This document shows, in pieces, positions 3,691 to 64,000 of a DNA stretch of 64,000 nt; position 1 is the stretch's first letter; the number at the start of each line of letters is the position of its first letter. This DNA is from Argentina anserina. Its lineage: Eukaryota; Streptophyta; Magnoliopsida; Rosales; Rosaceae. Position numbers and translations under genes: made by a program. The notes under the pieces were generated by a model. That model was not told where the DNA came from, searched no databases, and was given only the letters and a program-made list of their open reading frames with translations. The stretch covers positions 31,008,501 through 31,072,500 of the forward strand of contig NC_065874.1 of the NCBI RefSeq assembly GCF_933775445.1, written 5' to 3'.

Positions 3691-6000
3691 ATCCTCCGCA
3701 TTCGCTCCGCAAAAACATCTTTTTGCCCCGAAAAACCCCGCATCAGAGGATTCAAAATTGCTCATCCCGCATATATACGCAATGAAAGCGAACTGCACAA
3801 GCAAACTCTTCGCTCAAGAGAAGCTACTCCCGTCTTCTCTACCCTTTTGGGCCTTTAAACTATTTCTCTTTTTTCCTTTTTATTTTCCTATTGCTTATTA
3901 AATCGTTTATTTGCACGTTTTCGTTTTCTAACTATGTTTCACGTGCTTGCATAGGAAAAGTGATCACTCGTCGTACTATGGTGATGACATTCATGCCGAG
4001 ATGGATGATACTTTTGTCATCTACATACGATTTTGATCGTACCATCCCAACATTTTATGTCATCGGACGAAGATCGAAAAGGAATTCAACAAGCAACTTC
4101 ATGCATGACGATCGATTTGCAGAGCAATTTACTTATATGCGGTCTATTTGGCAGACCAACAAGTATGTTTTTCTTAAAGTTGCTGCTTTTGAAGATATAT
4201 ATATAAATTATCGGGCGTTATTAGCCTTTTTTTTTCATGTCTTCTTTTCCGGCCTTTCTTATAACGCCGATGAGACCAAAGAGGGATATGATTCCCCTCT
4301 TGGTCGACGTTTTTCGTGTGACGGTCCTGGGGGAGTCACGTTATTATTTAAAAAGGAAGATATCGATTTCGTGTGGTCGCCTGAGTGCACCGCTGTTTTG
4401 GGTGCGATCATGAGAATCGCCGATATGCATCGATTATTTTGTGACCATATACATCACAACCCTTCTAATTCCGGTTACATACTTGAATATTTCGATTATT
4501 CGAAACCTATCCAACCCTCGTTTCTTATGGATGCGTCGCCATCGCGACTGTTATTTGAATGCTTGAGTTTTCTTAAACTCATGCCTATAAACGATAATCC
4601 CAAGGTCTACGTACTCATTTATTTGAGTTGATTCATTACTCTGATGCAGCACTATTTGCTGACAAAAGATCCCAAAAATAAAGAATTCTATGGGACACAC
4701 TTAAAGTGATTTAATGAACGTCTATGACGTTGTATTATCAGAGTTGACCTTGATGCATACTCCACATCCAAGAAACGCATGCCCTTTTTGGCACCTGTAT
4801 CTATTTCTTGAGGGAATTTTGGAGATGGAAAAGTAACATTCTTCCATTCTCAAGTAAGCAAACATTTTTGAGCCTCAGGCTAAAGCTCCGCCCGATCCGA
4901 TATGCAAGATTTTGTTGCTACGGACTTTTGATTAGTCAATCTATTTTGACTATGTTTTCTGCTTACTATTTTTCAAGTATGACGTTGGCATTGCCATGTT
5001 TCTTGTTCGACTTTAGCTTAAGTCGTCTATTGGAATTGGAAGTTTGGTTGTGTTGTATTAAATATTGGCATATTCTATAAAATTTCTCGTCTTTCTTGGA
5101 CTTGTGAGAATTTTATTTGCCTTGGCTTAGCATGCATGGTCAACGTTTACAACTCACGTGGTTTTTAAATTGGCCGCTTTTGGGTTACATGGGACCCCAA
5201 TAGCACTACATTGTGATTTTGGACTTTGAAATTTGGAAAACGGACCTCGGAACGTCAAAATTGACGTCGTTTTTCCCGGTTATTGTTCCGGCGTTTCCGG
5301 AACGTTTTTTTGACGTTTTACCGGCGTATTCACCGCCTTCCGGCCATATTCCGGCGTTTCCGGCACCGCCATCCTGTTCCGGACGGCGTTCCCTGTCGGA
5401 CCTGAAGTTACGGCCTCCATACCGGCCGGATTTCCGGCACTCGGTGCCGCCGGCTTCCGACGAGTTTTTCCGACGATTTTTTTTTCCGTCGTTTCTCGTC
5501 ATGTTTTCCGCATATTTCAGCAGTTCTTGCTGCCAAGTTTTCCTTGTCCAAATTTCACCCGGTTTTGAGTTATATTGACATGGTTTTCCGGTTAATTTTC
5601 CGGTTTTCTCCAAGTCGTTTCATAGCTCAAATGATTTTATTATTATTGGTGACCACCCGCACCAATTGGATGGTTTTTACAACCCAGATCGTTTGGTATT
5701 CAACTGCTCCAATACAATGTTTTTCCAACTCTTGAGTTGAAGAATGTAGTTCTATTGCCATGTGATACATTCGATGGGATTGCCATTTGTTTCAATCCCC
5801 TCTCTTACAATATCCTACGGCGTATTGTGTAGAGAAGTTCACCGCGTTGTTGACTCTCTTAATCTTCATTTTGAGAATGTCCCGTCGTGAAATCGAGTGT
5901 CTTGCTAATTGCGTAACCACCCACACTGTCCTACGGCGCAGGTAGTTGTTTTACGGATCTCGTGCGGAGATTGTGTTCTATATCTTCGTGCCTTGCTAAG
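3690..6000 (+). other. Internal region of copia copy 1 without recognisable protein
   Basis: This matches the internal region of copy 2 (about 27190-29550) over its length, so it belongs to the element. Several frames of up to about 250 codons are open, but none shows Gag, protease or zinc-knuckle motifs. The piece at about 5265-5490 is unusually rich in TTCCGG/CCGG motifs and homopolymer T, which again opens frames on both strands. I see no support for a real protein. Confidence 0.5.
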
Positions 6001-6298
6001 TTTTAAAGGCCATACATGCCAATGATGGATTTCCATCTTGATATTTGTGTTAAGAATGGAGAGGAATAAATCTGTCAGATTTCATTGACAGTATCTTTTT
6101 CAAGCTTCGACAGTAGCTTTGTTAGCATGCAGACATCGTTTTGCTTGCGTGCAGCAGTAGCTTTATGTAACTCAAGATTCTTTGAATCATGGGTTCGGTT
6201 TTACTGTCTTCTCGATTTTGACATGATCGTTTTTTGGTCATTTTGAACAAGATATGATAATTCGAGTTCTTTGAAATTCACATTATCATCTATTTTTC

Positions 6299-7130
6299 AT
6301 GTTCACGAAGCGATTGGAGGACCACCTCACCCATGCTCCACACGGTGAGGCCGAGCCTGCCTATTTCGGAGGCTCCATGGCATTAAGGCCGTCGGTGGCG
6401 GCATCCCCTCCTTCACAGGAGCTTGTGATGCCTCCCGTGTCTTCTAATGCCTCCATGACAATCTCTGATGCCAATCGCTCATTTTGCAAAGCTTGTTCTT
6501 TTGCTAGATTTCAAGGAAGTCCTTATTTGCTAAGGCTCCAACCGAGAACATTCCATTCTTACAAAGTATTTAAGGTGACATTAGTGGACCCTATCCAACC
6601 GAATACCGACATTTTTTGGTATTTTTATGCTATAGGTTAAGAGCATCGACGCGTTGGTCACACGTCGCTTTGCTTTCCACAAGAAACGCTGCATTCGCTA
6701 AAGTTTTTAGCTATGATCATCATCCTAAGGGCTCACCACCCTTCCTATCCTCTCAAATCTATTTGATTGGATATCGTTGGAGAGTTCACCTCCACGACTT
6801 TGATGATTTCGTTTTGCATATCTACGGGGATCGTCGTTGAACATATTATTCCTCATGTCCATTCACTGCACGATCTAGCAGAGCTCGGACTTGGTTATGG
6901 GTACTAACCTGCCGATTTTGGCATGGAGATATGTAATGATTTTGCATGCAGCAACACTTATTCGTTTCAGACCCACAACTTGCCAAGCGTTTAGTGCGTA
7001 CCAGATGGTCACTGGATACAGTCCCAACGTTCTTTTCACTAACGCCTATTTGGTTAAAGTTATTTATGTGCCCCTATTGTAGTTATCTCAATGGGTCTAC
7101 TTGAAACGATTAAGTATTCTGGTTGGTTAT
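6299..7130 (+). pseudogene. Copia integrase-region relic (copy 1, forward arm)
   Basis: The reading changes frame several times. Its pieces are a pre-integrase linker with TKRLEDHLTH, then CKACSFARFQGSPYLLRLQP, then (about 6650-6690) STRWSHVALLSTRNAAFAK, then (about 6890-7080) a distal integrase piece containing RFRPTTCQAFSAYQMVTGY. These match the order in plant copia integrases of the kind with a long linker before the core. The DDE core between the blocks is not intact. Stops and frame changes at about 6640, 6838 and 7082 make it non-functional. The same relic occurs inverted at 9087-9976 and forward in copy 2. Confidence 0.72.
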
Positions 7131-14921: not shown

Positions 14922-16505
14922 ATGGAAGGATCACGGAGTACCATGATCAGACTCAACCACTCCAACTGGATTACCTGGAAGCCGAGAATGGAGGATATTC
15001 TCTATTGCAAAGATTTGCATGAGCCGATCGAGGGAGACGATGCCAAGCCAAGTGAGATTTCACCAGCAATTTGGACGAAGAGGAACCGCAAAGCCATCGG
15101 TCATATTCGTGAATGGGTGGACGATAGTGTATTTCACCATGTTGCCAATGAAACCAGCGCGCATGAGCTTTGGTTGACATTGGAGTCCTTATTTGAGAAA
15201 AAGACTACTGCCAAGAAATCTTTTCTCATTAAAGAGCTCGTCAACATGAAGTATCGGGGAGGCGTTCGAGTGACCGAGCACCTCAACAACTTTCAGAGTG
15301 TACTCAATCAATTAGCAACGATGAGCATGAAGATTGATGATGAGTTACAAGCGTTGCTGCTGCTCGGGTCGTTACCAGATAGCTGGGAGACATTTGTTGT
15401 CACTGTAAGTAACTCTACTCCTAATGGTGTATTATCTATGGAAAATATTAAAGATAATATGTTGAACGAAGAAACAAGAAGGAGTTCTTCATCAAGTTCA
15501 GAAAATGGTCAATTCTTCGTTGCGGAGAGGAGAGGAAGGAGCAAGAGTAAAGGACCCAGAGGTCACGAAAGGAGTATTAGCAAATCCATAACAAAGTTCA
15601 ACGGAAAGTGTCATCATTGTGGTCTTCTAGGCCACATGAAGAAAAATTGTAACAAATTGAAGCGGGAATTCAAAGAACCAAGAGAAGACACTACTCATCA
15701 ACAAAAGGAGGACACAAACAATGTTGTTGCTATGGTGTCTCGTGATGAGTGTGAGTTTCTGTCACTTGGAGGTGAATGTCTACTAGTAGATAATCCTGGA
15801 GTTCAATGGATCGTTGATTCTGGAGCCTCGTTTCATGCCACTTCTCACATAGAGTTCTTCAATACGAACAAAGCAGGTGACTTTGATAAAGTGAAGATGG
15901 ACAATGACAGCTACTCTAATATTGCTGGGATTGGAGATATTTGCTTGCAGACAGATGTGGGCTGTCAGTTATTGTTGAAAGATGTGAGACATGTTTCTGG
16001 TCTACGTCTCAATCTTATGTCAACTGGTGTACTTGATCGACAAGGCTTTCATCATCATGGTGGTGATGGAAATTGGAAGCTTACCAATGGATCTCTTGTA
16101 GTTGCCAGAGGAAAAATGTGTTGCACACTCTACAAGACCTATGGAAAGATATGCAAGAGTGAGTTGAATGCAGTCGATGAATCTTCTTCAAGTTTGTGGC
16201 ATAGACGTCTTGGCCACATGAGTGAGAAAGGACTGCAGTTGTTGGCAAAGAAGTCGCTAATTCCTGTTACCAAAGGTAACTCACTAGACTCTTGTGATTA
16301 TTGTTTATATGACAAGAATAAGAAAATTAGTTTTTCAAAGACTTTCACTAGGAAAGAAAATATTTTAGATCTTGTACATTCAGATGTGTGTGGCTCGATG
16401 GAAGAAGAATCATTAGGTATGCATAAGTATTTTGTTACTTATATCGATGATGCTTCGCGAAAGGTTTGGGTTTATTTGTTGAAATCCAAAGACCAGGTGT
16501 TCTAG
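14922..16505 (+). pseudogene. Copia I gag-pol, first part: Gag, protease, integrase N-terminus
   Basis: The frame opens at the ATG at 14922, 40 bp after the LTR. A copia Gag (UBN2-type) domain covers about residues 10-200. A CCHC zinc knuckle CHHCGLLGHMKKNC is at residues 230-243. The aspartic protease has its catalytic Asp in DSGA at residue 299. The pre-integrase zinc region has LWHRRLGHMSEKGL near residue 425, and the first integrase core residue lies in LVHSDVCG near 485. The frame stops at a TAG at 16503-16505 in the middle of the integrase core. The family makes one Gag-Pol polyprotein that is cut by its own protease, so this copy would give only a truncated product. Confidence 0.92.
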
Positions 16506-57109: not shown

Positions 57110-58880
57110 ATGGCTTTAAATATTTCTCACTTTGTTGGTGTTGATACATGGATTATTGATTCGGGTGCGTCTGATCATATGACTTATGACAAATCTTATT
57201 TTACTATATTGTCTCCTCCACTAGTATCCTATGTTACTAATGCTAATGGTGAGGCATTCCACGTATTAGGAAAATGGTCAGTTCGTATTACCCCCACAAT
57301 AGAGCTTCACAATGTGCTCTATGTACCTGTTTTATCTCATCATTTGATATATGTTCCCCAATTGAACGCTGACGCCAAGTGCTATGTGACATTTTTTCCT
57401 ATGTATGTGATATTTCAGGATCTTCTCACCGGGGAGTTAATTGGTCGGGGTATCTGAGGGGCCGGTTGTTTCATCTGGATCAGACATATGCGGGGGAGAA
57501 ACCAGGGGCACAGTCTCGGACCGCTTTAATCTTCACTTCTGACAAGCTAAGTGAAGTTTTGTTATGGCATCGTCGCTTAGGGCATCAATCTTTTAGTGTT
57601 ATGAAAAAAATATATGCCTACTTTGTTTATTAGTGTGGATGAGTCACTTTTACGTTGTGAGACATGTGTTTTGGGCAAGAGTCGTCGTTCTACTTATTCC
57701 CCTAGTACTTCTATTAAACGTATTATTCCTTTCGAATTAATTCATTCTGATATTTGGGGACCCTCCAAAGAATCTACTGTGTCATGGATGCGGTATTATG
57801 TGTCATTTATTGATGATTGAACCCGTCTTTCATGAATTGTTCTCCTCAAAACTAAAGATGAGGTTTTTCACGCTTTTCAAGCCTTCTATACCACTGTCCA
57901 AACAAAATATAATGCCACAGTTAGAGTTCTTCGTTCTGATAATGGGGGGGGAATATGTGAATCATGTCTTTCAGGAGTTCCTTTGCACACACGAAATTGT
58001 TCATCAAATAGCGTGACCTTATACACATGAGCAGAATGGAGTTTCTGAAAGGAAAATCGTCATTTACTTGACATGGCTCGGTGTATTCTTTTTAGTGCCC
58101 ATATGCTCAAATACCTTTGGGGTGATGCTGTCATAACTTCCGCCCACCTCATTAATCGTCTTCCCTCTCGTGTCCTTCAAGGAAAAGTTCCATATGAGGT
58201 GCTTGCATCTCATGTCTCCTTACTCTTTTTTCATAATCTTCTTGCCCGTGCTTTCGGTTGTGTTGCTTTTGTCCATCTTCCAAAACACCAGAGATCTAAG
58301 TTGGATACCCTGGCCGTTAAATGTGTGTTTGTTGGGTATGGCGGACATCAGAAAGGGTACCGGTGCTATCATCCGCCTACCAGGAAGTACTATGTCACTA
58401 TGGATGTTACTTTCTTTGAGGACATGAGTTATTTTCCCTCTTCCGATACTACTCTTCAAGGGGAGAATTCATACTTTGAAGAGATGTATCATGGAGACGG
58501 GGAGAAAAGTAAGCCAGTAGATATGGTGACAGGATCAATTGAGATTACCAATGTGTCCGCTATACATGCACCACCGAGTGATTCCGGTATAGTCACTCCA
58601 GAGATTCAGGTACCAGAAGATGACAACACAACTGCCCCTCATGACTCTCGTACTACTGTTTATACACCTGACCAATGCTCTCCTGGTACGGAAGATCACT
58701 CATCTGAGGTTAGTCATTCTATTGGGACTAATACTAATGAGGCTAATAGCAGACAATATGTCTTGCCAAATAGGTCTACTCGGGGTCAGCCAACAAAAAA
58801 ATATGAACCTACCCTTCAGGCTAAAACTAAGTATCGTGTGGAAAATTTTATGTTTACTAAAAGATTGTATAAGTCATAAG
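57110..58880 (+). pseudogene. Copia II protease and integrase relic
   Basis: Protease active site WIIDSGASDHMT at about 57150. Pre-integrase LLWHRRLGHQSFSVM at about 57560. CETCVLGKSRRSTYS and LIHSDIWGPS follow in a shifted frame, then SDNGG with a frame break at about 57940, then the C-terminal integrase piece (58073-58880) with YLWGDAVITSAHLINRLPSR and VKCVFVGYGGHQKGYRCYHP. The core residues are spread over three frames, with stops near 57817 and 58013. Confidence 0.82.
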
Positions 58881-58929
58881 AATCATTTGTGAATCAAATA
58901 TCTACTATATCAGTACCTAACAAAGTTCA

Positions 58930-60400
58930 GGATGCATTGAGAGATCCAAAATGGAGGAAAGTAATGGAGGAAGAGATTGAAGCATTACAAAAGAACAATA
59001 CTTAGGAACTTGTATCTCTACCACATGGCAAAAAGACTGTAGGATGTCGTTGAGTGTTTACAGTGAAGCATAATCCAGATGGCTCAGTGAGCTGGTATAA
59101 AACACGCCTAGTAGCAAAATGGTTCACCCAGATATATGACATAGACTATGATGAGACATTTGCACATGTTGCAAATATGAGCACTATTCTAGTTTTGCTC
59201 TCTTGTGCTGTTAGCTTAAACTGGCCACTTAGACAGTTTGATGTTAAGAATGCATTCCTTCATGGAGAACTTACAGAAGAAGTGTACATGGATCTTCCAC
59301 CGGGATATGCGGCCGCTTCTCCAAGTAACTTTGTATGCAGATTGAGGAAATCTTTGTATGGTCTTAAACAGTCACCTCGTGCTTGATTTGGAAGATTATC
59401 ACAATTCATGAGGATAATTAGCTACAAACAGAGTAATTCAGACCACACATTATTTCTCAGACATCAACAAGGGAATGTAACAACCCTAATTATATATGTT
59501 GATGATATGGTAGTTACTGGGAATGATATTGTTGAGGTGGATAGATTACAAAAACAGCTAGCCACAGAATTTGAAAGACCTAGGAGCACTCAAGTACTTC
59601 TTGGGCATTGAGGTAGCCCGGGGAAGTGATGGTATCTATCTGTATCTGAGGAAGTACATCCTTGATCTACTAATAGAGACCGGTATGCTGGATTACACTC
59701 CCATTGATACTCCTATTGAGCAGAACCATCGGTTAGCAGAATATCCATATCAAATGCGTATTGAAAAACCTCGTTATCAGAGGCTAGTTGGACGTCTGAT
59801 TTATTTATCACATACCAGACTAGATGTTGCGTATGCAGTGAGTGTAGTGAGTCAGTTCATGCATAATCTCAGTGTGGACCACATAGATGTTGTTGTAAGG
59901 ATTTTGAGGTACTTAAAGTCAGCTCCAGGGAGAGGAGTAATGTTCTCTAATCACAATAATATCCTTGAGGTTTGTGGCTTCACGGATGCAGACTGGGCTG
60001 GAAATATAACAGCTCGGAGATCTACATCAGGGTACTTTACCTTTGTTGGGGTAAACTTGTTAAATGGAAGAGTAAGAAACAAAAAGTGGTAGCTCGATCT
60101 AGTGCTGAAGCAGAATACAAAGATATGGCTCAGGGAGTGCGAATTATTATAGCTTAGAAATTTGCTACAAAATTTGGGTATTAAGCCTAAGTATGCTATG
60201 CAGCTGTAATGTGACAACAAGACAGCTATTGATATTTCCCAGAATCTTGTGTAACATGATCGTACAAAACATGTGGAAGTTGATCGTCACTTTATAAAGG
60301 AGAAGCTAGACGCAAAAATCATAAGTTTTCTTTTTGTTCCTATAGAAGAGCAACTTGCCGATATGCTCACAAAATGAGTGTCTAAAAAGGCCTTTTATGA
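58930..60400 (+). pseudogene. Copia II reverse transcriptase and RNase H relic
   Basis: RT starts near 58950. [20 protein letters not shown] and [20 protein letters not shown] follow, then [11 protein letters not shown] (stop at 59384), the catalytic box IIYVDDMVVTG at about 59490, a frame change near 59575, and RNase H with FTDADWAGNITARRSTSGYF and (shifted) RSSAEAEY. Further stops lie at 59005, 60090 and 60156. The order and motifs are complete enough for a clear copia assignment. Confidence 0.85.
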
Positions 60401-60453
60401 TTCACTTAGCAAGTTTGGCATAGTTGATATGTATGCACCAACTTAAGGGGGAG

Positions 60454-60620
60454 TGTTGGCGTGAATCACGGAGGGAATTGAGGGTTAAAGTGTAGGTTTA
60501 CTTATTATATATAGAATATTAATGTGTATAGGTTGATTAAGGCAGGGTAATATACTTTTCCTCTTTGTTTAAATAGAGGCCACCCTCAATTAATAAATCA
60601 GATCTCAAAATTCTCTAATA
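60454..60620 (+). repeat. 3' LTR of copia II
   Basis: TGTTGGCGTGAATCACGGAG directly after the polypurine tract. Collinear with the 5' LTR for 108 bp and continuing through TTTAAATAGAGGCCACCCTC. End estimated. Confidence 0.7.
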
Positions 60621-61079
60621 CGAATCCTGGTCATAAAATAGGGGTAGGTCAGTGGTGGATGCATGTGGAAGATCTCTTACCAATATATAATATGTAAGTA
60701 CTTGGAAATATTTAAAGAACCTTTAGTTCAGTTGGTTAGTTGTCTTGTACATGTTCTTAGGAATCGTTATTAACTCAGTTTTTAATTGTCTTTTTTTTTT
60801 CTCATATATTATATTTTTCTCCCTTTAAGTCTTTAACCACACGGTCACACACTTTGTCCTCCATTTCTTATTTAATGTATCATGCAATTTTTTCCCTTCT
60901 CATTTCCTTCTTTAGTTAATATATTTTGAAATATGTTTTTGCCAAATTTTTACTTTTTGATTAATTTCAATGAAATTCTAAAATGTTTTATCATACACAC
61001 TTCCTTAGTGTTTTTAATAAAATTTTCCTGTGATGAGTTTCTAATATAAAAATATATACATCAAGAAATTGTAAAGAAA
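60621..61079. other. Intergenic, no gene seen
   Basis: T-rich sequence between copia II and the decayed Gag-UBP copy. No features recognised. Confidence 0.4.
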
Positions 61080-61790
61080 ACACCGCCGCGCTGCGTCCCT
61101 CCTGGAGGTCCTCATGGACCACTTCACTAAACCCTCAATGTCCGGAGACTGGTCAAGTTCAGGCGCTACGTGGAGCACAAGTTGCCCGCCGGCTGGGCAA
61201 ATCGGTAGATGAGCGCGTACAGGAGATGACTTTCAGGGCTGCAAAGCTAGACAGTGAGGGAGTGGAAAGTCTTAGAGGAGTTGCAGGTTTTGATGTTGAT
61301 GAATAGTTTGCCGGAAAGGCCGGAAGAGACGGTTGAATGGCGACTGGTGAACATGGATACATATGAAATGTGTCTCGACAAGGTGATTGAGAGGCTCGCT
61401 CATTTGCGCTAGTACAAGGGTTTGGAAACAAAAACAGAAATGACCATCTAAGACTTAATTTCCAGCTTTGATTAGTCGTCATTGTTTGCTTATGATGATC
61501 GACTCATATAACAAATATAGGTACTTTTTTTTTTGAAAGGAAAGCCCTAACTATTATATGTTGCCTGAGAAACTTTGATTTCGATCGACCTTGTGAATCA
61601 TAAGAAAAGTCAGCATAGTTTTTTGTATTTTGATTTTTGAAGGAGACACCATTAATTTAGTATTATTAATTAAGATTAATTTTCTTGTTCAATTCAAACT
61701 CGAATACTCGATTATAAAATAATCTTGATTCAGTTGACTGTATTCTTGTCCCTGCCATCTTTTGCTCTGCTTACAGTTGAAATAAGTGTG
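61080..61790 (+). pseudogene. Decayed tandem copy of the Gag-UBP12/13 chimera
   Basis: About 330 bp (61080-61411) follow exon 1 of the chimeric gene from about residue 104 onward (compare CACTTCACTAAACCCTCAATG with 62370). A part collinear with its first intron comes next, then a remnant of exon 2 (about 61560-61670, with GACCTTGTGAATCATAAGAA and GAAGGAGACACCATT), and then about 110 bp of the next intron. The first ~100 codons and the promoter are missing. A net length change near 61185 shifts the frame and a stop lies at 61408. Because both the Gag-like part and the UBP part are present in the same order, the copy arose after the fusion. Confidence 0.8.
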
Positions 61791-61928: not shown

Positions 61929-61938
61929 CTATAAATAG
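61929..61938 (+). promoter_or_regulatory. TATA box of the Gag-UBP chimeric gene
   Basis: CTATAAATAG, a near-ideal plant TATA box, 88 bp before the ATG at 62026. A C-rich stretch follows where transcription would begin (about 61960). Confidence 0.7.
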
Positions 61939-62025: not shown

Positions 62026-63511
62026 ATGCTGAGTTCAATCAAAAACATGGTGTCTCGTAACGTAATTCCCAATAGGTGGAGAACCTCAGACGAGACTTCA
62101 GTCCTGAACTGCAAGGCCAATTTCGGCAACTGGAAGACCAAGCTTGAGTCTGTCCTCAAGTTGAACCACGTCGACTACGTCCTCACCGAACCAAAGCCTC
62201 CCGAGCCCACCACCGTAACCCCTCAAACTGGCGTCGCTCGCCACCAGAAATGGCTCGTCGACGACTCCCTCGCCCGCGGGCTCATCCTTGAAACACTCGA
62301 CGCAACGGTTTACGTCTCTTATCTCCACCACCCCACCGCCGCGTCCCTCATGAAGGCCCTCACGGACTACTTCACTCAACCCTCAATGTTCCGGAGGCTC
62401 GTCAAGTTCAGGCGCTACATGGAGCACAAGTTCGGGGAGGGCAAATCGGTAAATGAGCATGTGAAGGAGATGGGTTCCTTGGCTGCTGAGCTGGAGAATG
62501 AGGGAGTTCAAGTTCCGGAGGAGTTGAAGGTTCTGATGCTCATCAATAGTTTGCCGGATAGGTGGAGAGAGACTATTGATGGGCTAATGGTGAACATGGA
62601 TAAAGATGGTCCAGGTGAAATGGGTCTTGACAAGGTGACCAAGAGGCTCATTGACTTGGGTTTGAAGAAACACAGAGAAGAAAATCCAGACCTGTATGCT
62701 ACTATAAAGGTTCAAACCCTCTCTTCAATACATTTCAAGCTGCATTGATCATTTGTTGCTTCTGATGATTTATATAACTATTATAGGTTTCCCGGGAGGA
62801 GGATCTTTTTGAGCAGATTGGAAAAGACATCTTTTTCGGCCTTGTGGATCATAAGAAAATCAGAAGTTTTTGTATTTTGAAGGAGACGCCATTTGACCAA
62901 TTTAAGGTTCATTAGTATTAACTGTATGAATAAGATTTATTTTCTTGTTCAGACTCCATCGTAATTGATTATCAATATGATCTGGATCGTATTCTTGTAT
63001 GAGTTGTCTCTGCTATCTTTTTCTCTGTGATATCAGCATAGTTACAATGCGCGCAATTTCATTCAACTTGGTCATTTTTGTTTGATGATTTTCCTTACGG
63101 GTTTAGGAAATAGGATTGAAGATCTTACAGTTCAGCTAAGATATGCAAGTACCAATCTAATGCAGCCTACGTTACATGATATCATATTACTAGAAGCATT
63201 AAATATATGCAATTAGGAATTTAGGATAATGTTTCTGTGGTATAAGCATTAAATCAGACCTCAGCTGAACAACTCTGTTTCAGAAATACTATCTACTCTT
63301 AATGCTAGAAAATATTGTTTTACACAATTATCTATGATATTATGTTCTGTCTTGCACTCATTATTGTTCTCCATAATGATTCATCCAGGAGGAGGTTGCG
63401 AAGGAGTTTGGCATACCAGTACAATATCAGAGGTACTGGAAATCGGATGAGGGTAAAATCAGTGAAAATCGCCCATGGCGTCGGTTGACACTTATGGAGG
63501 AAAGAGCATCT
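62026..63511 (+). CDS. Chimeric gene: copia Gag (UBN2-like) domain fused to UBP12/13 C-terminal segment (partial)
   Basis: Exon 1 is 62026-62709 (228 codons, first in-frame ATG), exon 2 62787-62906 (40 codons) and exon 3 63389-63511 (41 codons). All joins are phase 0 with GT/AG borders (62710, 62786, 62907, 63388, 63512). Residues ~28-205 form a copia Gag/UBN2 domain (NFGNWKTKLESVL; VKFRRYMEHKFGEGKSVNEH; LMLINSLPDRW). From about residue 212 the sequence is that of plant UBP12/UBP13 (PDLYATIKV; then EQIGKDIFFGLVDHKKIRSF; then EEVAKEFGIPVQYQRYW), the region related to the ICP0-binding domain of USP7. UBP12/13 are deubiquitinases, but the catalytic domain is absent here. Introns are retained, so the UBP part came by DNA duplication. 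No further exon was found by 64000. Expression and function are unknown. Confidence 0.8.
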
Positions 63512-64000
63512 GTAATTATCTTCTGCTCTGATATCTTTGTCTGTAATTAATGTTCTTTTTGATGCATTTCTTTTGGTCAGACTCCGATGATAGTTGACTG
63601 ATCTGTTTGGTGATTGTCATCTTGTAGATGTTATCAGTACATACAAGTTACAATCTGATACTTTTACTAGTGTGCTTCTGTAAAGGAAAAAAATGCTATG
63701 ATTTCAGTACATACAAGTTACAATCTGTCTTAAAAATGCTATGTTATCAGTTAAGTTCTTTCATGTTGTACTTGGGTTTGATTTTCTTTGTTTCCTCGTA
63801 ACAAATTTACATAAAAAGCCCACAAATTGTCCAGACCTTCCATTTACACATTCGTGTTTATGCTGCTGATGTTTCTTTCTGCTATCTGTTTTCTTTGTTT
63901 CCTTTGATGAACTTTTATGGGACAGGTGTAATTTCTATATCTTCATTTGGTGCTTTTCATGTGCTACATGATTTCCGCACACTAGCCAATAAGCTACATT
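63512..64000 (+). other. Presumed intron 3 of the chimeric gene, runs out of the window
   Basis: Starts with GTAATT at the exon 3 border. T-rich sequence typical of a plant intron, with a short direct repeat AGTACATACAAGTTACAATC at about 63639 and about 63707. The next UBP12/13 exon, expected to begin with a Gly-Gln-Leu-Arg-like segment, was not recognised before the window ends. Confidence 0.5.

Follow-up and report, generated by a model that had tools for sequence, protein, structure and literature searches.

A copia-type Gag joined to the UBL1-UBL2 region of a UBP12/13 deubiquitinase in silverweed and rose

Introduction

A relative of the protein considered here, as to its N-terminal part, is the Gag of Copia, a working element of Drosophila, which binds RNA via a zinc finger; Gag without its nucleocapsid part (NC) does not assemble alone and joins particles with intact Gag (PMC11835246). 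In animals, host genes have arisen from Gag without pol, as in the case of Arc and the mammalian metavirus-derived capsid genes, and these domesticated Gag genes derive from Ty3/Gypsy-type or metavirus elements (PMC6525542, PMC11011659). In plants, UBN2/Gag domains have been annotated in NLR immune receptors of several families, including Rosaceae, and the authors considered the evidence insufficient to state that transposon activity made the NLR-UBN2/Gag fusions (PMC4759884).

UBP12 and UBP13 are the plant deubiquitinases of the USP7 type. In USP7, an acidic loop (758-DELMDGD-764) enables UBL2 to grip KxxxK peptides from ICP0, GMPS, and UHRF1, and binding of the ICP0 peptide is lost when E759, D762, or D764 is changed (PMC4457826). 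The substrate BES1 of Arabidopsis UBP12 contacts the N-terminal half of the enzyme and not the UBL half, and the N-terminal half has no enzymatic activity by itself (PMC9483116).

Silverweed (Argentina anserina, also Potentilla anserina) carries on chromosome 3 a gene in which these two kinds of sequence are joined. Its Gag part lacks a zinc finger, unlike Copia Gag. It resembles the animal domesticated Gag genes in being a host gene built from Gag without pol, but it is of the copia type, occurs in plants, and is combined with a deubiquitinase region. With the NLR-Gag proteins it shares a copia-type Gag placed within a host protein, the partner being an NLR in the former case. No Gag-UBP fusion was found in the literature on Gag domestication or fusion, searched mostly outside subscription journals.

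Gene structure and encoded protein

The gene starts near the end of the window, a 64,000-nucleotide stretch of chromosome 3 (C3:31008501–31072500), comprises eight exons, and encodes 454 residues. Its spliced product is identical, letter for letter over all 454 residues, to the public protein P0001, listed for Argentina anserina as "ubiquitin C-terminal hydrolase 13-like isoform X2"; the name "ubiquitin C-terminal hydrolase 13-like" is misleading and hides the nature of the Gag-UBL proteins. Exon 1 (62026–62709, forward strand; window numbering throughout) is open for 228 codons identical to P0001 residues 1–228, and codes for a Gag capsid domain (residues ca. 27–212) and the first UBP-derived residues (ca. 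213–228). The preliminary description of the locus had recognized in this exon 228 stop-free codons with a copia-type Gag turning into UBP sequence near residue 210. Pfam bears out the Gag assignment (PF14223, Retrotran_gag_2, E 8.1e-22 and 77.9 bits against a cut-off of 27 in the three-exon product), and the switch was located at residue ca. 213–214, where the sequence is rich in K and E and can be aligned to the beginning of a UBP12/13 exon.

Exon 2 (62787–62906, forward strand, residues 229–268), in which the UBP12/13 UBL part begins, was delimited from the splice model and the matches to UBP12/13 genes, and exon 3 (63389–63511, forward strand, residues 269–309), in which it goes on, from the splice model and exon-wise comparison. 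As anticipated, both match UBP12/13 genes and are bounded by GT-AG sites in phase 0. The three-exon model was correct in its exons but too short, five more exons lying past the window end at 64560–64622, 64704–64792, 64917–65025, 65426–65494, and 65608–65715; all seven introns follow the GT-AG rule. Intron 3 contains a 30-bp direct repeat (63628–63657 and 63698–63727, 93%). A TATA-box-like TATAAATA at 61930..61937 of the forward strand, 96 bases upstream of the ATG, may serve as a promoter element, and the 336 bases preceding the ATG have a single match in the genome, namely themselves, in a DNA search skipping very common words.

In the whole P0001, PF14223 (2e-21) and PF12436 (USP7_ICP0_bdg, 1.5e-26) were the only families above the Pfam cut-off, and the best match of the UBP part among USP7 UBL structures was 4pyz (E 4.8e-18). 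The binding part without the protease, as had been proposed, is what was found: neither the catalytic domain nor the MATH family is among the Pfam matches of P0001, and tblastn with a query holding only the end of the UBP catalytic domain detected no such end in the window or in the next 40 kb, up to C3:31112000. The 454-residue protein has no catalytic USP domain, no further UBLs, and no zinc knuckle. Compared with UBP12/13, it has the same UBL1-UBL2 exons and intron places but lacks the end of the catalytic domain and the further UBLs, and bears Gag at its N terminus. The silverweed UBP part ends with a stop within an insertion, just ahead of the position at which the parental exon carries GTAAG.

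A profile built from 15 members of the Gag family, all 15 of which match PF14223 and which include three of the fusion clade (the silverweed fusion, copy B described below, and P0003) as well as P0007, shows homology to the solved capsid of Drosophila Copia Gag (PDB 8vvw) with an E of 4.1e-15, the match spanning capsid and knuckle.

Origin of the UBP part

The sole other matches of exons 2 and 3 in the silverweed genome are two UBP12/13 genes, at C3:19.09 Mb and C6:13.30 Mb. The fusion is nearer to the gene on C3 (58.7% protein identity, vs 54.7% for that on C6), with which exons 4 to 6 can be aligned together with the introns between them, so that the UBP piece was acquired by DNA duplication. 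A retrocopy was ruled out, since the introns are kept and partly alignable. At the positions corresponding to USP7 E759, D762, and D764, the silverweed fusion has E/E/D, and both the rose fusion described below and the parental UBP have Q/D/D; thus, at D762/D764, silverweed has E/D and the other two D/D (from printed alignments, the parental residues by sequence).

The fusion in rose and the age of the junction

The Rosa rugosa protein P0002 has the same architecture as P0001, with both PF14223 and PF12436, and the two proteins share 299 of 426 residues (70%) and a common junction, no gaps being needed to align them. P0003 also reads across the junction, into a similar intron start. In silverweed, rose, and P0003, the joint is common and falls a few bases into the UBP exon that encodes LKKEQEEK...LYTIIK, and the same nine residues are missing relative to the UBP12/13 exon. 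A 6-row tree places the UBP parts of both fusions in a single clade (100/100). From the architecture, joint, and nine-residue gap common to both species and from the single UBP clade, we read the fusion as one event that predates the Argentina–Rosa split. The suggestion that the locus is a single gene of one architecture is supported by the rose fusion, which is likewise joined; in the orthologues, Gag and UBP did not occur as separate units.

Exon 3, in which 25 of 41 residues are the same in silverweed and Rosa, contains a stretch strongly diverged in silverweed. A compensated frameshift was looked for here and rejected, no indel having been found relative to the two UBP genes. The rose protein carries at residues 438–469 an RG-rich basic tail, absent from the silverweed protein, which possibly substitutes for the lost nucleic-acid-binding knuckle.

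The tandem cluster in silverweed

Among the 150 candidates scored per search, the Gag part of the fusion has three relatives of more than 40% identity in the genome, all within 30 kb, so that a cluster of four is formed, while the other copia Gags of this genome are at most ca. 31% identical to it (ca. 28–31% for the closest). Directly upstream of the gene lies a decayed tandem copy comprising a Gag part (61081..61406, forward strand; 77% nucleotide identity over 327 columns with 16 gap positions, one TGA and three TAG falling within the protein match) and a remnant of UBP exon 2 with the following intron (61585..61769, forward strand; 68% nucleotide identity to 62836–63027). Its composition indicates that the joined Gag-UBP unit is tandemly duplicated at the locus.

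In copy B (C3:31079987–31080634, L035:7988–8635), the Gag frame is open and lacks a knuckle, UBP exon 2 is shortened, and the donor site has been lost, so that this copy is a Gag-only derivative of the fusion gene; directly ahead of it, an LTR-like stretch was seen by eye only. Copy D (C3:31.098 Mb, L037 about 5963–6570) is broken by a stop and frameshifts, has no knuckle, and is nearest to the stand-alone Gag type represented by Rosa LOC133734579. No knuckle-bearing family member was found elsewhere in the silverweed genome among the candidates scored.

The fusion Gag is accompanied by no pol and no repeated-element context, its family forming a single cluster of four in this genome and the stretch ahead of the ATG being single-copy. 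Recent insertion of a Gag beside a UBP was ruled out, both by the identities (not more than ca. 31% to the scored copia Gags of the genome, vs ca. 50% to the stand-alone Gag of other plants) and by the joined unit being duplicated locally and common with rose. Just upstream of the cluster, positions 57741–60640 hold copia pol frames that are broken and, behind them, an LTR-like stretch. The retrotransposons of the window had been described as decayed and full of stops, which holds for the broken frames at 57.7–60.2 kb but not for a copia gag match at 14988–15494, which is free of stops and forms part of an open frame of 532 aa; not all retrotransposons of the window are therefore decayed.

Stand-alone Gag proteins of other eudicots

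Alignment searches identified stand-alone Gag relatives in Rosa rugosa (LOC133734579, 249 aa), Pterospermum, Pistacia, Corchorus, Cinchona, Lonicera, Hibiscus, Acer, and others. The protein search was limited to lengths of up to 1.75 times that of the query, the longer Gag-pol proteins of other species lying outside its scope. In 12 of the 21 matches, a zinc knuckle (scored as C..C....H....C) is found 2–9 residues before the protein end, and 11 of these 12 proteins are 242–254 residues long, one having 263. The knuckle is farther from the end in two matches (P0026 and P0028) and absent from seven (P0003, P0007, P0017, P0021, P0022, P0023, and P0027); P0011, outside the 21-match set, has one knuckle cysteine changed. 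P0009, P0013, P0015, P0016, P0018, and P0024, from Rosaceae, Malvaceae, Sapindales, and Dipsacales, are stand-alone copia-type Gag proteins of ca. 247 residues ending just past the knuckle. P0017 of Cinchona calisaya (399 aa), a protein without the knuckle, seemingly contains two Gag units (by eye).

The stand-alone proteins, such as those of Rosa rugosa LOC133734579 and Pistacia vera LOC116130227 (both "uncharacterized"), have the same capsid part as the fusion, with ca. 49–50% identity to it for the rose and lgn representatives, but, unlike it, carry a CCHC zinc knuckle, stop just past it, and have no UBP part. In the fusion, UBL1-2 occupies the place held by the knuckle in the stand-alone Gag. 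LOC133734579 and the rose fusion are presumably on the same chromosome, their contigs being equally long (72,780,665 bases).

The tree of these Gag proteins has 19 rows, including two from silverweed, and its groups match plant family or order, in keeping with vertical descent. Eight rows around Rosa and Argentina split from the rest (100/99), with the fusion clade (100/99) nested in the Rosa–Argentina part, and the asterids Lonicera and Cinchona (100/98), Malvaceae (95/97, one further row inside), and Sapindales (85/90, two further rows inside) are also recovered. P0011, P0012, P0020, P0025, P0026, P0027, and P0028 were omitted from the tree as fragments, a near copy, or distant or divergent matches, and only the C-terminal half of P0017 was used. 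A tree with copia outgroups was rejected as uninformative owing to long branches: the domesticated rows did not fall on one side of a branch, and one copia row, whose branch measured 2.72, stood among them.

On the basis of these alignments and trees, the fusion Gag did not come straight from a neighbouring retrotransposon but belongs with the stand-alone Gag of Rosaceae, Malvaceae, Sapindales, and asterids. In our reading, the stand-alone Gag is a eudicot host gene of considerable age, as far as can be judged from proteins of up to 1.75 times the query length. A paper of 2021 by Wang and Han reportedly deals with co-opted Gag genes in eukaryotes, and the stand-alone gene may already have been described in it.

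Selection

Selection was estimated with a codon model on 236 codons of the UBP part and on 185 codons of the Gag part compared between the fusion gene and copy B. For the fusion branch of the UBP part, which includes any pre-fusion time, dN/dS is 0.41, differing from 1 (p 4.5e-4) and from a single value common with the two UBP12/13 genes (p 1.4e-5), which by themselves give 0.107. For the Gag comparison it is 0.56 (p 0.024 vs 1), or 0.62 by counting, the latter only weakly below 1 (bootstrap 0.38–1.01). A ratio near 1 had been named beforehand as evidence against such a gene; both codon-model estimates lie below it.

The Gag exons of the fusion gene and copy B are 80.4% identical, and all five gap runs between them are multiples of three; the introns are 68–69% identical, with seven of ten gap runs not multiples of three. 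This control is weakened by exon 2, dead in copy B, both gap runs of which are multiples of three too. When the silverweed coding sequence was mutated neutrally to the silverweed–rose protein identity, a stop appeared in each of 300 runs (mean 6.2); taken by part, the result is weaker, as 6.3% of the runs were stop-free for the Gag part and 2.7% for the UBP part. The share of conservative changes, 0.386, is within the neutral range (mean 0.294, maximum 0.437). The intact frame and the dN/dS values of the UBP and Gag parts point to selection, weakly for the Gag part alone.

The silverweed copy has changed faster than that of rose. In the UBP part, 36 changes are silverweed-specific and 10 rose-specific (p 1.6e-4), and the tips of the UBP tree measure 0.43 and 0.09, respectively. 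In the Gag part, with four outgroups, the silverweed/rose changes amount to 22/6, 16/7, 15/7, and 18/7 (p 0.004, 0.09, 0.13, and 0.04).

Proposed origin and mechanism

The reading we prefer, though with our confidence evenly divided, is that of a genuine host gene that arose in two steps and works as a Gag-UBL decoy or scaffold, its function being deduced from the architecture. In the first, old step, a copia-type Gag would have become a stand-alone gene of ca. 247 residues with capsid, zinc knuckle, and its own stop, as suggested by the similar length and stop place of the present-day proteins and by a tree following plant groups. In the second, before the Argentina–Rosa split, a duplicate of this gene would have been joined at the DNA level, with introns kept, to the UBL1-UBL2 exons of a UBP12/13 gene, at the point where the knuckle would begin; the common junction, the common nine-residue gap, and the intron homology argue for it.

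As the fusion Gag is without the RNA-binding knuckle, it would oligomerize mainly by co-assembly with knuckle-bearing Gag, like Copia Gag without the nucleocapsid part. The UBL2 pocket, in which acidic residues are retained at the two USP7 positions gripping KxxxK peptides, would load the Gag assembly with UBP12/13 ligands. Overall, this would yield a multivalent decoy or scaffold, devoid of a protease and in competition with full-length UBP12/13 for partners. Counter to this picture, the D762 position is E in silverweed and the E759 position is Q in rose, and BES1 binds Arabidopsis UBP12 outside the UBL half. Since the N-terminal half of UBP12 alone is inactive, the UBL half may modulate activity, so that the fusion might also influence how active UBP12/13 is. 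The roles put forward in the preliminary description, a dominant-negative partner or a Gag-derived adaptor, are likewise hypothetical.

Rose has both the fusion and a knuckle-bearing Gag annotated, and its fusion is slow-changing; silverweed has a broken knuckle-type gene and a fast-changing fusion. This coincidence, from two species only, fits the co-assembly picture. With copy D broken and copy B lacking a knuckle, co-assembly fits rose better than silverweed. A silverweed leaf RNA-seq data set, ERR9435015, exists (PMC11162522).

A bolder version of the two-step reading, which we regard as unlikely, is that the eudicot copia-derived Gag still forms RNA-binding capsid-like particles and that the duplicate of the rose subfamily swapped its knuckle for UBL1-2, so that mixed particles dock deubiquitinase ligands.

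Three other explanations have to be weighed. The faster change in silverweed, with the tip lengths given above, the state of the cluster, in which the upstream copy and copy D are broken and copy B has lost the UBP part, and the lack of a knuckle-bearing member elsewhere among the scored candidates of the genome would all suit a decaying relic, i.e., a fusion functional once and still so in rose, the constraint on which was relaxed in silverweed after loss of the partner Gag, its frame not yet being broken. We consider this somewhat unlikely, as all eight exons, the splice sites, and the frame are intact, the Gag exon shows no frame-breaking gap vs copy B although ca. 31% of intron sites differ and most intron gaps are frame-breaking, and dN/dS of the fusion branch is below 1. 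That the joined model is an annotation artefact in both species, with Gag and UBP pieces merely adjacent, is brought to mind by the protein names, which resemble those of automatic annotation. The junction, however, lies inside exon 1 within one open frame and not at a splice site, it is common, with its nine-residue gap, to silverweed, rose, and P0003, and a decayed copy of the joined unit adjoins the gene, so that this explanation is most improbable.

Fv1 and the Ty1 p22 fragment are restriction factors that act by capsid poisoning. A knuckle-less Gag with a foreign arm has a plausible form for such a poison, and copia elements with long open frames exist in the genome; the gene might accordingly be taken for an anti-retrotransposon factor whose UBL arm recruits the ubiquitin machinery. 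The closest scored copia Gags are only ca. 28–31% identical to the fusion Gag, which makes co-assembly with living elements doubtful and this explanation quite unlikely, although less so than an annotation artefact.

Significance

The locus points to a copia-type Gag that Rosaceae, Malvaceae, Sapindales, and asterids have retained as a short protein standing on its own. The fusion adds a second innovation, in which the RNA-binding end gave way to the ligand-binding part of a deubiquitinase. Should the proteins assemble, they would provide a testable plant system for the host function of Gag and a natural capsid scaffold tied to ubiquitin control. If the bolder version of the two-step reading were true, the mixed Gag/Gag-UBL particles would be a plant counterpart of Arc and PEG10 wired into ubiquitin signalling.
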